DNA from: Rhizorhabdus phycosphaerae
GTDB lineage: Bacteria > Pseudomonadota > Alphaproteobacteria > Sphingomonadales > Sphingomonadaceae
Direction of reading: 5' to 3'
DNA: 64,000 bases
NCBI RefSeq assembly: GCF_011044255.1
Contig: NZ_CP049107.1
Location: 3,159,001 to 3,223,000 of the forward strand
This document shows positions 27,358-31,534 of the stretch, piece by piece (position 1 is the stretch's first letter; the number at the start of each line of letters is the position of its first letter). The notes beneath the pieces were generated by a model, which did not search any database, had not been told where the DNA came from, and worked only from the letters and a program-made list of their open reading frames with translations. The translations under genes were made by a program, and so were the position numbers.

Positions 27358-27636
27358 GTGATCAGGTCGGAATTGGTTCAGATGTTGGCGCAGGAGAATC
27401 CGGATCTTTCGCCCAAGGAGGTCGAGAAGATCGTTTCCACGCTGTTCGATGCCATCAGCAAGCGGCTGGCCGAGGGCGGCCGGGTGGAACTGCGCGGGTT
27501 CGGTGCCTTTTCGACGCGCTCGCGAAGCGAGCGGGTGGGACGCAACCCGCGTACCGGCGACACGGTGCCCGTGTCGGCCAAGCGGGTTCCCTATTTCAAG
27601 CCCGGCAAAGAGATGCGCGAGCGGCTCAACGTCTGA
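27358..27636 (+). CDS. ihfB: Integration host factor beta subunit
   Basis: A 92-residue DNA-bending protein of the HU/IHF family. It begins with [25 protein letters not shown]. The DNA-binding arm and C-terminus read [23 protein letters not shown] and [16 protein letters not shown], which fit IHF-beta rather than HU. The GTG start at 27358 is preceded by AAGGGGG and matches the usual N-terminus. A promoter with TTCGAT (27219) and TATACA (27242), 17 bases apart, is possible. Confidence 0.95.
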
Positions 27637-27697
27637 TCGCGATACGAAACGCTCTTGGCGCCTCGGCGCCCGCTGGCTATTCAGCGCGCTCCATGCT

Positions 27698-28015
27698 GCG
27701 GGCGTGGCGAAACTGGTAGACGCAACGGACTTGAAGTCACATCGAGTGCCCGCAGGGAAACCCGCGGTGCAGAACTGCTCAAATTCGGGGAACCCTTCTT
27801 CCTGGCGATCCCGAGCCAAGCCGGCGCGCTGCGCCGGAAGGTGTAGAGACTAGACGGGCAGCGCCTACATCCGCGCGCGGGCATCTGCGTGCGGACAGGG
27901 CGAAGGTATAGTCCAGACCACGAACGCTCTCCGGGGCGGCGGCGAAAGCCGAAGTGGTATGAAAATCCGTAAGGTCGCGAGACCTGTGGGGGTTCGATTC
28001 CCCCCGCCCGCACCA
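27698..28015 (+). tRNA. tRNA-Leu (anticodon TAA), split by a group I intron, CCA encoded
   Basis: Exons are 27698-27732 and 27962-28015. GCGGGCG pairs with CGCCCGC, followed by A and CCA. Joining the exons restores an anticodon arm ACGGA-CTTAAAA-TCCGT with anticodon TAA. The long variable arm and T arm (GGGGGTTCGATTCCCCC) are normal. The intron enters between anticodon bases 34 and 35. Tools that do not model introns would miss this gene or report a wrong anticodon such as TGA. Confidence 0.95.
27733..27961 (+). ncRNA. Group I intron (IC3-like) in tRNA-Leu(UAA)
   Basis: The intron is 229 bases long, ends in G, and carries no ORF of significance. The 5' exon ACTT pairs with GAGT at 27743-27746, placing the expected U-G pair at the splice site (P1). 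Core segments match the cyanobacterial tRNA-Leu intron as I remember it: AAATTCGGGGAA, GATCCCGAGCCAAGCC, CGGAAGGTGTAGAGACT and AGACGGG. P7 can form from GACTA (27848-27852) and TAGTC (27909-27913). A P8 hairpin is visible around 27868-27895. It is probably self-splicing. Confidence 0.93.
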
Positions 28016-28223
28016 CATCCCCCGCAGGTATTTACCGGTACTTGGGCTGGCGGCCGTCTAGCAGCGACCCGCGCCAGGGAGCCGGCCAAATGTTAGCTTG
28101 TGCAAAGTGCGAGGCTTTTTCGGCTTTTTATATTTCGTCCGGCAGGATTTTGAGGCACTTGTCATAGGATTGCCGGGGGTTCGGATCCGCGGGGGGCAGC
28201 GGACCAGGGAGCGACGAAAGACT

Positions 28224-28250
28224 ATGACGTGCAGGATAGGCGCAGCGTGA
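28224..28250 (+). other. Possible 8-codon upstream ORF before the export gene
   Basis: ATG at 28224 opens an 8-codon frame whose TGA (28248-28250) overlaps a GTG at 28247 in the frame of the polysaccharide export gene. AGGGAG lies upstream at a somewhat long distance. Coupled re-initiation is possible but unproven. The remaining 28016-28223 stretch holds no recognised feature. Confidence 0.25.
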
Positions 28251-28894
28251 AGGGGTCAGGCCGCACGATCGCCTTCGTCGTTGGGCTGGCCGCCCTGCCG
28301 GTCGCCTCGGCAGCGCCGGCGCAGACCGCTGATGCCGTCTCCGCCCTGACCGGTTCGGCTGCGGTATCGGCGCCTTCGCCAGGGGCTCTGAAGCCTTATC
28401 GGATCAATCCGGGCGACGAGATCGAAATCTACGTGTGGGGCGATGAACGTCTCCAGCGCGTGCTGAAGGTCCTGCCGGATGGCAGCGTTTCCTTTCCGCT
28501 GGTGGGACGGATCGACGCGCTCAACAAGCTGCCCACGGACCTCGAGGGCGTGATCGCCGCCGGCCTGTCGGACCAATATCGCAACAGCGTCCCGCGTGTG
28601 ACGGTCTCGGTCAAGAATCCGAGCGGGTTGAGCTTTTCGGTTGCCGGGAAGGTACGGCAGCCGGGGGCGTTCCAGCCGGGCCATTATGTCAACGTGCTCG
28701 AGGCGATCAGCGTGGCCGGGGGGCCGACCGAATTCGCCGATCTGAGCAAGGTGAAAATCTACAGGAAGCAGGGGGCACAGATCCAGGTGATCGACGTCAG
28801 ACTCGACACGGCGATGAAGGGTTCTCCGTCGCAGACCGACTTGCGCGGCGCGATCATCGAATTGCAGAGCGGCGATACGGTGGTCGTTCCATGA
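28247..28894 (+). CDS. Polysaccharide biosynthesis/export protein (outer-membrane, GumB/SpsD-like)
   Basis: A protein of about 215 residues with a signal peptide (ending near APAQT) and no lipobox cysteine. The export domain begins KPYRINPGDEIEIYVWGDERLQRVLKVLPDGSVSFPLVG (written in two conserved halves). A SLBB-like segment follows: FSVAGKVRQPGAF and YVNVLEAISVAGGPTEFADLSKVKIYRK. The family forms the outer-membrane channel for capsule or exopolysaccharide. The start is uncertain: GTG at 28229 or 28247. The latter overlaps the stop of a tiny upstream frame. It is the first gene of a five-gene export operon and overlaps the next by 4 bases. Confidence 0.9.
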   Translation: MKGSGRTIAFVVGLAALPVASAAPAQTADAVSALTGSAAVSAPSPGALKPYRINPGDEIEIYVWGDERLQRVLKVLPDGSVSFPLVGRIDALNKLPTDLEGVIAAGLSDQYRNSVPRVTVSVKNPSGLSFSVAGKVRQPGAFQPGHYVNVLEAISVAGGPTEFADLSKVKIYRKQGAQIQVIDVRLDTAMKGSPSQTDLRGAIIELQSGDTVVVP

Positions 28895-30060
28895 GCCGCT
28901 GGGGGGGCAGGGTCGCGCTGTTGGGGGCGATACTGGTAACGGGAGCAGCGACGCCGGTGCTCGCCAAGACGAGCTTCTCGATCGAGACCGATTATCGCCT
29001 CGGCTATGATGCCAATCCCTTCCTGTCCGCCGGCAGCGATGTCTCGGCGACCTATATCGAGACGTCGGTGGCGCCCCGGCTGACGATCCAGACCGCCAAG
29101 GGGCAGACCTCTGCCACCGGGCATTTCGACCGGACCGGCTATCTGAGCAATTATGGCAAGAACGACGCTTACGGCGCCGAACTTACCACGCAGCAGCGGG
29201 TCACGACCAAGCTGACGGTGTTCGGTGCGCTGCGCTACGACAGCGAGGTGATCGGCCAGGGGCGGGACGACGTGACCGGCGACCCGATCGACGCGCCCGA
29301 CGTGAACCTGATCGGCCTTCGCCGCCGGTCCAACACCTATGCGGCCAGCGGCGGCTGGCAATATCAGGCCACCCCCAAGGACCAGATCAGCGCCGATGGC
29401 GGCTTTACCGCCACCCGCTTCGCCAACGGTCCGGGAGGCGCCGATTCCAACAACTATGGCGGCCGCGTCGGTTGGAAGCACGCGATCAACGCGAAGACCA
29501 AGGTCGGCGTCAGCGGTTCGATCTACCGCATCGATTACGACACGGCGGGGCTGAACACGCTGATCATGCAGCCGCAGCTGACCTTCTCGACGGTACTCAG
29601 CCCGACCTGGACGGTCGATGCGTCATTGGGCATGTCGTTCAGCAAGCTCAATCTTCCCGGCATCGCTCCATCGATCAATACGAGCGGGCTCGCGGGCTCG
29701 CTTCAGCTGTGCCACACCGGCCGCCGTACCAATCTCTGCCTGGTCGCCGACCGGTCTGTCAGCGCGTCGGGTGCGGGCAGCACCGTCGAGCGCACGCAGG
29801 TCGGGGTCAATTATCGGCACACGCTGAACGAGCGGCTCACCTTCCTGTGGAACGGCAGCTATTCGCGCAGCGAGGGCCAGGCGGGGCTGCTCGACACACG
29901 GCAGTTCGTTTCCGGCCGCGGTGGGCTCGAATGGCAGTTCAAGCGCGGTCTCAGGATCGGTGCCGAGGGCTATTATCGCGACATTTTCGGCCAGGGCTTC
30001 CCGGTGAAGGCCGATATCGGCGGCGATATCTATGCGACGATCCAGCTGGCGAAGCGCTGA
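28891..30060 (+). CDS. Outer-membrane beta-barrel protein of the export operon
   Basis: A 389-residue protein with a signal peptide (ending near PVLAK). Its alternating aromatic and polar pattern is that of a beta-barrel porin (BBP2-like), including DYRLGYDANPFL, GHFDRTGYLSNYG and FLWNGSYSRSEG. It ends in a strand close to YATIQLAKR. Proteins of this kind accompany exopolysaccharide export genes, where they may assist secretion or surface anchoring. It overlaps the export gene (ATGA) and is followed 1 base later by the chain-length gene, so expression is coupled. Confidence 0.85.
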   Translation: MSRWGGRVALLGAILVTGAATPVLAKTSFSIETDYRLGYDANPFLSAGSDVSATYIETSVAPRLTIQTAKGQTSATGHFDRTGYLSNYGKNDAYGAELTTQQRVTTKLTVFGALRYDSEVIGQGRDDVTGDPIDAPDVNLIGLRRRSNTYAASGGWQYQATPKDQISADGGFTATRFANGPGGADSNNYGGRVGWKHAINAKTKVGVSGSIYRIDYDTAGLNTLIMQPQLTFSTVLSPTWTVDASLGMSFSKLNLPGIAPSINTSGLAGSLQLCHTGRRTNLCLVADRSVSASGAGSTVERTQVGVNYRHTLNERLTFLWNGSYSRSEGQAGLLDTRQFVSGRGGLEWQFKRGLRIGAEGYYRDIFGQGFPVKADIGGDIYATIQLAKR

Positions 30061-30061
30061 A

Positions 30062-31534
30062 ATGGATGAAAATGCCGATCCGGCGACGTTGAATGAGGTC
30101 GAACTGTCGGACGGGCTACTCGCCTATCTGCCGCAGATCCTCGCCCAGCGCCGCTGGCTCGTCGTCATCCCGTTCTTCGTCAGCACGGCGACGGGCATCG
30201 GCCTGGCCTATGGCCTGCCCGCTGCCTATCAATCCTCGGCCACAGTCGTGGTCGAGTCCAAGGAGCTGCCCGAAGCGATCGCCGCAACGGCGGTGAACGA
30301 CCTGATCGACCAGCGCATCGCCCGCATCAAGCAGCAGATATTGAGCCGCCCGGGCCTGATCGAGATCATCCAGCAAAACGACCTCTACCAGGCCGAAAGG
30401 CGGAAGCGCTCGCTGTCGACGATCATCGACATGATGCGCAAGGCGACGGCCATTACCCCGGTGACGGCAGACATCGACAAGCTCGCCGAGCGTCGCGGTA
30501 CATCCAGCACGATCGCCTTTGCCGTAACCTTCACCTATTCGGACCCAGCCAAGGCACAGGCCGTCACGCAGCAGTTCACCGAAAAGCTGCTCAAGCTCGA
30601 CAGCACGCAGCTCGCGGCGCAGGCGGATGCGACGGTCGGCTTCCTGCGCGACCAGGCCGGGCAGATACAGGGACAGATCGCCGAGCTGGAAGGGCGGATG
30701 GCCGACATCAAGGGACGTAACGGTCTCGCCCTGTCGCGGATCGGGGGCTTTATCCCGTCGACGGCCAATTATGACGTCCAGATCGCGCAACTGCAGCGCG
30801 AGAACACCGAGCTTCAGGGACGGCTCAACAGCGGGAGCACCAATGCGGACGAGCGCGTCTCCCAGGCCGAGGCCGCGCTCGCTGCCGCCCAGGCGCTGTT
30901 TTCGGACAACCATCCCGACGTCATCGCCGCAAAGCAGAAGCTGACCGAGGCGCGGGCCGCCGCCCGGGCCAATATGGGGCCGCGCAATAATCCGGCGATA
31001 AGCGCGCAGATTGCAGCGAACAACCGGACGATCGCCTCGCTGAACACGGCCAAGTCCGCGGACATGTCGCGCGCTAATGCGGCGGTCGTCGCGCAGAGCG
31101 GAGCCCCGCTGATCGAGGAGAGCATTCGCCAGCTCGAGGCCAAGGCCGATGGACTGCGCGCCAATTACGAGCGGATATCGGGCAATCTCCTGGCTGCCGA
31201 GGCTGCCCAGAAGATGGCCGAAGAACAGCGCGGGGAGCGGCTCGTTCTCGTCGATCCCCCGACGATGCCGGATGAGCCCAACTCGCCCAACCGCGGCCTG
31301 CTGATCGTCGGGGGGCTGTCGGTGGGAATTGCCATGGGCCTCGGCCTCGCGCTGCTCGTGGAATTGATGCGCCGCCCCATTCGCGGCGCGGCCACGCTGC
31401 AGCAGATGCTCGGCGTCGGACCCCTTGTGGTGATTCCGACCCTCAAGCCTAAGGGCAAGGGGGGACGGGGCCGGAAGAAGGCGAAGGCGGGCAGGGGGAT
31501 TCTCCGCCGACGCGACAAGGCAAAGGCGGTATGA
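30062..31534 (+). CDS. Polysaccharide chain-length determinant (Wzz/GumC N-part, SpsC-like)
   Basis: A 490-residue polysaccharide co-polymerase without a kinase domain. The first membrane span is about residues 35-55 (LVVIPFFVSTATGIGLAYG). A long periplasmic coiled-coil region follows (about 180-370, with many Ala/Gln heptads), then a GNVR-like segment and a proline-rich stretch PPTMPDEPNSPNRG. The second span is about 420-442. A basic cytoplasmic tail ends the protein. The partner kinase is a separate protein encoded immediately downstream with a 4-base overlap, as in sphingan clusters. It sets polymer length and links polymerase to the exporter. Confidence 0.92.
   Translation: MDENADPATLNEVELSDGLLAYLPQILAQRRWLVVIPFFVSTATGIGLAYGLPAAYQSSATVVVESKELPEAIAATAVNDLIDQRIARIKQQILSRPGLIEIIQQNDLYQAERRKRSLSTIIDMMRKATAITPVTADIDKLAERRGTSSTIAFAVTFTYSDPAKAQAVTQQFTEKLLKLDSTQLAAQADATVGFLRDQAGQIQGQIAELEGRMADIKGRNGLALSRIGGFIPSTANYDVQIAQLQRENTELQGRLNSGSTNADERVSQAEAALAAAQALFSDNHPDVIAAKQKLTEARAAARANMGPRNNPAISAQIAANNRTIASLNTAKSADMSRANAAVVAQSGAPLIEESIRQLEAKADGLRANYERISGNLLAAEAAQKMAEEQRGERLVLVDPPTMPDEPNSPNRGLLIVGGLSVGIAMGLGLALLVELMRRPIRGAATLQQMLGVGPLVVIPTLKPKGKGGRGRKKAKAGRGILRRRDKAKAV

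Follow-up and report, generated by a model that had tools for sequence, protein, structure and literature searches.

Introns of tRNA-Leu(UAA) genes are a textbook case for the age of introns, one argued mostly from cyanobacteria and plastids, in which the intron sits after U34. A tRNA-Leu(UAA) gene that appears to be interrupted at the same position lies in a stretch of 64,000 nucleotides from the genome of the sphingomonad Rhizorhabdus phycosphaerae (contig NZ_CP049107.1, positions 3,159,001 to 3,223,000; hereafter the window), which raises the question of whether this gene is indeed split by a group I intron and, if so, by which route the intron came to reside there. Judging from the gene's letters, predicted fold and relatives, a small group I intron almost certainly splits it after U34, and catalysis and splicing are predicted for this intron. 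The kind of intron is already known, and the locus is a genuine case: the group I intron is conserved, and the tRNA gene that holds it would otherwise be missing.

Architecture of the split tRNA-Leu(UAA) gene

The gene and its upstream neighbor, which served as a syntenic anchor, comprise the following features.

27358..27636, + strand: HU/IHF-family gene, just upstream, syntenic anchor (PF00216, E 2.1e-31; synteny)
27698..28015, + strand: tRNA-Leu(UAA) gene, complete, 318 nt with CCA
27698..27732, + strand: 5' exon, last base U34 (sequence, spliced cloverleaf)
27733..27961, + strand: 229-nt group I intron, its last base (27961) the terminal (omega) G (RF00028, model R1, covariation)
27962..28015, + strand: 3' exon with AAAA (35-38), stem, long variable arm, T arm, acceptor and CCA (sequence, cloverleaf)

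The two exons, GCGGGCG...CUU (27698-27732) and AAAAUCCGU...CGCCCGCACCA (27962-28015), together give a tRNA-Leu with the anticodon UAA, and the spliced cloverleaf possesses a 7-bp acceptor stem, a long variable arm, A73 and the CCA end. Its anticodon loop reads CUUAAAA, which sets the anticodon as UAA, on an anticodon stem of ACGGA/UCCGU. Under the rules of an exon-final U, an intron-final G, a 7-base loop and a 5-bp stem, a single junction fits the window; the coordinates of the gene, the site after base 34, the length of 229 bases and the final G given in the first-pass annotation were all correct as judged by the sequence and the spliced cloverleaf.

An antisense ORF of 111 aa (27681-28016, minus strand) spans the entire tRNA gene and is likely spurious. 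Neither this ORF nor two further ORFs that overlap the intron matched Pfam at E<=0.01, and no homing-enzyme frame was recognized in the intron by this search of the three overlapping ORFs. Downstream of the tRNA gene, polysaccharide export (Poly_export, SLBB) and weakly Wzz-like genes occupy 28229-31534.

Secondary structure and covariation of the intron

The helices were drawn by hand on the window sequence (74 pairs) and counted on 15 intron-bearing rows including the window. In addition, a core model, R1, which contains P3, P4, P6 and P8 but not P7, was built from 8 rows and collected 102 intron cores from 100 chosen loci. The helices of the window intron, all on the + strand, are given below.

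27730..27746, +: P1, exon CUU (27730-27732) with the guide GAG (27744-27746); 3 pairs in 15/15 rows
27750..27767, +: P2, GAAA tetraloop at 27757-27760, one A/C mismatch in the window; 91.4% paired, two-sided changes in 4/7 pairs
27775..27861, +: P3 (27775-27780 with 27856-27861); invariant in 15 rows, two-sided changes in 4/6 pairs in 102 rows
27784..27815, +: P4 (27784-27789 with 27810-27815); 95.8% paired, two-sided changes in 2/6 pairs in 102 rows
27793..27805, +: P5 as first drawn; 44.4% of cells paired, 1/3 pairs holds up
27821..27837, +: P6 hairpin; 88.4% paired, two-sided changes in 3/6 pairs (15 rows)
27848..27913, +: P7, guanosine-site helix (27848-27852 with 27909-27913), crossing P3
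27862..27902, +: P8 (27862-27865 with 27899-27902) and its extension; two-sided changes in 3/4 pairs in 102 rows
27917..27958, +: P9 (27917-27921 with 27954-27958); P9 and P9a 98.7% and 100% paired, two-sided changes in 1/9 pairs
27940-27951, +: P9a hairpin CGGC-GAAA-GCCG, within the P9 region

In the 15 rows, 95.7% of the cells of the 74-pair structure are paired, and 12 of the 74 pairs show two-sided changes. When the structure was slid along the alignment, 34-43% of cells were paired and at most four pairs had two-sided changes, a control that favors the drawn structure because this structure was drawn on the window. In four of five measures, no shuffle out of 500 came up to the observed value; in the fifth, the number of further pair types, 19 of 500 did. 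Among the 102 cores, whose alignment is fitted to R1 and so favors P3, P4, P6 and P8, 98.5% of cells are paired and two-sided changes occur in 13 of 23 pairs. P3 and P7 are invariant in the 15 rows, so that alignment is uninformative on them; in the 102 rows, P7 is 99.6% paired with two-sided changes in 3/5 pairs, although it lies outside the R1 model. The pairings of P1, P7 and P8 that had been noted in the first-pass annotation are borne out by the alignments (three pairs in every one of the 15 rows for P1, and the values above for P7 and P8). The core helices P3, P4, P6, P7 and P8 are all present with P3 and P7 crossing, and each of the 15 rows has the P1 U-G pair that lies at the 5' splice site, together with the terminal G. 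The core strings of the window intron presumably resemble those of the IC3 subgroup. A UC stands 5' of the guide in the window, as in 17 of 124 introns, and UU in 95 of these 124, a set that was not deduplicated and includes the genome itself twice (L001, L021) and other repeats, e.g., L007/L116; with these letters, a P10 pairing of the guide with the 3' exon would be weak here.

Detection by tRNA and intron models

The split gene escapes routine tools. With default settings, ARAGORN reported one tRNA in the window, a tRNA-Tyr, and not the tRNA-Leu(UAA), and the Rfam models at their gathering scores likewise returned tRNA-Tyr alone; the earlier claim that the gene would be overlooked without an intron model is therefore confirmed. 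When introns were allowed, ARAGORN found the gene and named it tRNA-Ser(GGA) because the junction was shifted; this identity was rejected, since the junction is misplaced and the sole junction that meets the rules gives Leu(UAA). The genome seems to lack a UUA-reading tRNA because the finder and the Rfam cut-off miss or misname the split gene. The Rfam group I model, which had been proposed as a check, does match the locus at a relaxed threshold (RF00028, 27723-27935, 29.8 bits, E 8.7e-6 in 501 bases), but the score stays under the gathering score of 50, which is a detection cut-off and not a trait. Across the 4.33-Mb genome, this locus is the only RF00028 match at E<=10 (E 1.8e-5), and one of 14 loci of relatives (L015) reaches the gathering score, with 13 of 14 below it. 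Model R1 gave 148.6 bits on the window intron, which is among R1's own sequences. Matches to tmRNA, permuted tmRNA and plastid ycf2 in the same stretch were rejected, as they lie below their respective cut-offs; the tmRNA matches are read as the 3' half of the tRNA-Leu(UAA) gene. According to a part of PMC8450103, tRNAscan-SE 2.0 was not designed for such introns, which its authors met in fMet and Ile2 genes.

Copy number and proposed splicing

A search of the genome with RF00005 found 43 tRNAs, in which the Leu anticodons are CAA, CAG, GAG and UAG. A second tRNA-Leu(UAA) gene, the observation to which the first-pass annotation had tied the fate of its reading, was not among these 43, in a search from which the rRNA operons were apparently masked. 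The census also lacks tRNA-Ile(GAU) and tRNA-Ala(UGC), and a pattern search for tRNA-Ile found nothing; these two are missing probably because the rRNA operons are masked, as is suggested by a masked stretch at one tRNA-Met locus. Since the census is incomplete, the window gene is likely, rather than proven, to be the sole tRNA-Leu(UAA) copy, and a hidden second copy is unlikely.

In the proposed mechanism, the transcript would fold P3-P8 round the P7 guanosine site, and a guanosine may attack behind the U of the P1 U-G pair. The freed 5' exon could then attack behind the terminal G, and exon joining would restore the loop CUUAAAA and thereby a tRNA that reads UUA. Alternatively, the tRNA gene may have decayed and its intron be dead, in which case UUA would be read by the product of another, unseen tRNA gene. 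Such a gene could have escaped the incomplete census, and UUA is rare, with 8 of 943 leucine codons in an ORF-based estimate from 22 long ORFs of the window, which have GC-rich third positions. Yet the cloverleaf and the intron core are intact, full-length homologues with compensatory changes exist in 11 of 13 congeners, and no other UAA tRNA is among the 43 found, so that decay is scarcely credible, and a working split gene is the preferred reading.

Distribution within the genus and the family

The close-relative set comprised 60 genomes, namely the genome itself, 13 congeners, 22 other members of the family and 24 others of the order. A full-length intron homologue was found in 15 of the 60: the genome itself, 11/13 congeners, 3/22 family members and 0/24 other order members; the assembly of G005, one of the two congeners without a homologue, is 82% complete. 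The HU/IHF gene was matched in 58/60 genomes, and the best 30 loci, all within the family, were examined. tRNA-Leu(UAA) lies behind the HU/IHF gene in 25 of these 30 loci, 14 with the intron and 11 without it, and the flank is devoid of tRNA-Leu(UAA) in the other five; G025 carries its intron elsewhere. In the HU/IHF tree, the intronless congener G007 is nested in the intron-bearing genus (97/90 and 95/89), and at least three changes of the intron trait are needed. The tRNA-Leu(UAA) of G007 also differs in the variable arm and the T stem, so G007 may just as well have had the entire gene replaced as have lost only the intron. In a tree of the 102 cores, the introns of the genus form one clade of 12 rows (99/96), in which the window pairs with G008 (100/99). 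Vertical inheritance of the intron within the genus is thus supported by the sequences; the intron would have been present in the genus for a long time and been lost or replaced there at least once, and beyond the genus the same site may have been gained and lost repeatedly.

Related introns in other bacteria, phages and tRNAs

Strict filters, by which weak matches are lost, were applied in the surveys of class, order and phylum. Within the window's class, R1 matched 49 of 385 genomes, and the best match, read in 30 genomes, lay in Leu(UAA) in 18 (the genome itself included), Arg(CCU) in 6, Lys(CUU) in 3, Lys(UUU) in 1 and Thr(GGU) in 2; some of these host tRNAs were assigned by eye, and the count for Leu(UAA) is at least 18/385. 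In the order, 14 of 296 genomes matched (Leu(UAA) 11, Lys(UUU) 2, Arg(UCU) 1). The phylum survey gave 28 matches in 299 genomes; Leu(UAA) is the host in no fewer than 12 of these, each of the 12 from the window's class, and a survey of the phylum round the acidobacterial genome L099 gave 14 in 247, at least five with Leu(UAA), the central genome included.

Named genomes were further scanned for the 3' splice region, which yielded at least 118 stretches, and an interrupted tRNA-Leu(UAA) was confirmed by script in at least 91. The scan pattern required GAAAATCCGT and so favored one exon type, other types occurring among the intron-bearing loci; the script required G before the 3' exon, and the terminal G of the scanned rows therefore lends no independent support. 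The confirmed hosts include Bradyrhizobium, Caulobacter, Brevundimonas, Sphingobium, Reyranella, Methylocystis, Sphingomonas echinoides, S. populi, S. canadensis, several Acidobacteria, Candidatus Binatus, a Roseateles MAG (betaproteobacterium) and Tahibacter (gammaproteobacterium). Among the 27 stretches beyond the 91, L208 is read as the same gene and L142 is probably the same gene. The rarity in Proteobacteria that the first-pass annotation had implied is not supported, as introns at this site are scattered in Alphaproteobacteria and occur also in a beta- and a gammaproteobacterium; relatives of the intron are spread among many bacteria of soils and waters and are found even on plasmids from hospitals, and the cyanobacterial framing of the intron needs changing.

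Related introns were also observed in tRNA-Lys(CUU) (L082, L084, L089, L335), Lys(UUU) (L221, L222, L090), Thr(GGU) (L091, L092), Arg(UCU) (L225, L333, L336) and Asn(GUU) (L329-L331). A cyanobacterial tRNA-Lys(CUU) case has a much shorter insert, as described in an excerpt of PMC5733544. L324 and L325 are tRNA genes with a CAU anticodon and ~600-nt inserts containing the same core. On single 8-kb stretches, two cores were seen in L126 (1801-1949 and 4933-5082), both in tRNA-Leu(UAA) genes, and in L095 (5588-5715 and 6086-6221), where the second seems cut off at its 3' side. ARAGORN returned no tRNA for the R1-matched loci L311, L314-L317, L318, L323, L327, L328 and L334. Of 11 viral contigs that matched the 3' splice pattern, an interrupted tRNA-Leu(UAA) was confirmed in L235 alone, a 490-kb contig; L237 has the core motif and no recognized tRNA. 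In Gordonia phage Daredevil (L243:1380-1670, approximately), a gene read by eye as tRNA-Lys(UUU)-like, near integrase and HNH endonuclease genes, carries a related intron after U34. The phage introns known at the date of PMC3984707 were all in protein genes, according to the portion of that article available.

Comparison with known tRNA introns

Vepritskiy et al. (2002) reportedly found a tRNA-Leu(UAA) intron of 231 nt in a subsurface Pseudomonas isolate, the first outside cyanobacteria; the tRNA is the same and the length about the same, and the host is a gammaproteobacterium. The tRNA-Ile(CAU) intron of Azoarcus differs in host tRNA and position; like the window intron, it has the core strings GAGCCAAG and GAAGGTGTAGAGACTAGACGG, and its P2 is likewise capped by GAAA. 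Crystal structures of the Azoarcus intron are mentioned in a section of PMC3984707, and an archaeal survey has been published (PMC6125680). Agrobacterium and Bartonella (BbgpI), from the same bacterial class as the window, carry introns in tRNA-Arg(CCU); these alphaproteobacterial introns are matched by the same core model, but they reside in another tRNA and are inserted after base 36, not after base 34 as here. Passages of PMC7717549 describe the Bartonella intron BbgpI as self-splicing and its gene as unannotated, and state that tRNAscan-SE finds this tRNA-Arg(CCU) gene only once it is spliced in silico. The cyanobacterial and plastid intron has the same host gene (partial texts of PMC4476775 and PMC5733544), a comparison by gene and site, and its host phylum differs; a search of viral contigs for cyanobacterial intron letters gave no match; introns of Leu(UAA) and fMet genes in cyanobacteria are reported in part of PMC5733544. 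A literature search naming Sphingomonas, conducted largely outside the subscription journals, found no title on this intron.

Copies on plasmids

Queried with the intron region in a distant search, PLSDB returned 1276 records, and a near search with one plasmid gene gave 1280; 1257 of 72,556 plasmids hold at least 80% of that gene, with Escherichia (493), Klebsiella (365), Salmonella (117) and others as hosts. Complete E. coli genomes gave a match in 635 of 5426 (at least 80% of the query in 624), and 81 of 670 matching places are chromosomal. The intron-bearing tRNA-Leu(UAA) copies inspected are as follows.

L240:3962-4255: intron-bearing tRNA-Leu(UAA) copy
L239:3958-4254 (approximately): intron-bearing tRNA-Leu(UAA) copy
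L290:5001-5297: intron-bearing tRNA-Leu(UAA) copy
L291:3501-3797: intron-bearing tRNA-Leu(UAA) copy
L292:3501-3797: intron-bearing tRNA-Leu(UAA) copy

An aac(3)-II gene lies within ~1.4 kb in all five inspected stretches (IId; predicted in pieces in two records), a neighbor named 'AAA family ATPase' in three of five and an upstream DUF3883 gene in three of five; the ATPase is presumably tmrB. In the two plasmid copies read in letters, the exons and the intron look complete. No annotated feature lay under the match in any of the 15 RefSeq E. coli records listed, two of which were also inspected in detail and show none; the PLSDB gene table has no RNA genes and is therefore silent on the annotation of the plasmid gene. 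The best chromosomal matches to the plasmid gene, among the genomes of the window's class that were searched, are 85% and 86%, the latter in an alphaproteobacterium. In the core tree, the two plasmid copies sit in a group of 17 rows (92/98) that is mostly alphaproteobacterial with two Burkholderiales. These observations suggest that plasmids can carry a tRNA gene as a whole, intron included, from host to host.

Ancestry of the intron

The core tree rests on 124 columns, with 35 of 99 inner branches open and the bootstrap not settled, and for this reason deep transfers are not settled by it. Five of seven Lys rows (100/99) and four of six Arg(CCU) rows (99/96) form groups of their own, and Leu introns of different classes and phyla are intermixed with weak support. 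One explanation is that the intron already occupied this site in an ancestor shared by Cyanobacteria and Proteobacteria, and that most lineages have since lost it. The same gene and the same position are in agreement with this, as is a core common to the site introns of Alphaproteobacteria, Acidobacteria and Candidatus Binatus; G007 suggests that loss or replacement does occur, and a test at the 0.05 level does not reject one clade for all 28 sphingomonad rows (p-AU 0.058, and 0.23 without the aberrant L220). However, the intron is patchy even inside one genus and one family, phyla intermix in the core tree, though weakly supported, and intron-bearing genes are seen on plasmids, so ancient inheritance appears unlikely. 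A mobile intron that homes by an endonuclease could account for the patchy distribution and the several host tRNAs, but the intron has just 229 nt, and the three overlapping ORFs are devoid of a Pfam match; homing is improbable, although an enzyme encoded elsewhere might serve it.

Returning to movement of whole genes, it is possible, though rather doubtful, that tRNA-Leu(UAA) is a general hot spot for one bacterial intron lineage, which spreads when recombination and plasmids carry entire intron-bearing tRNA genes. The intron of cyanobacteria and plastids would then belong to this lineage as one of its branches, and in clinical Enterobacteriaceae the lineage may now ride along with a gentamicin-resistance module, functional yet unannotated, and supply an extra splicing tRNA. 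Examples are numerous in Proteobacteria and Acidobacteria, and intron-bearing and intronless alleles occur at one syntenic position, which makes gain, loss and transfer directly testable; as the plasmid copies show, such a tRNA gene does travel in one piece with its intron.
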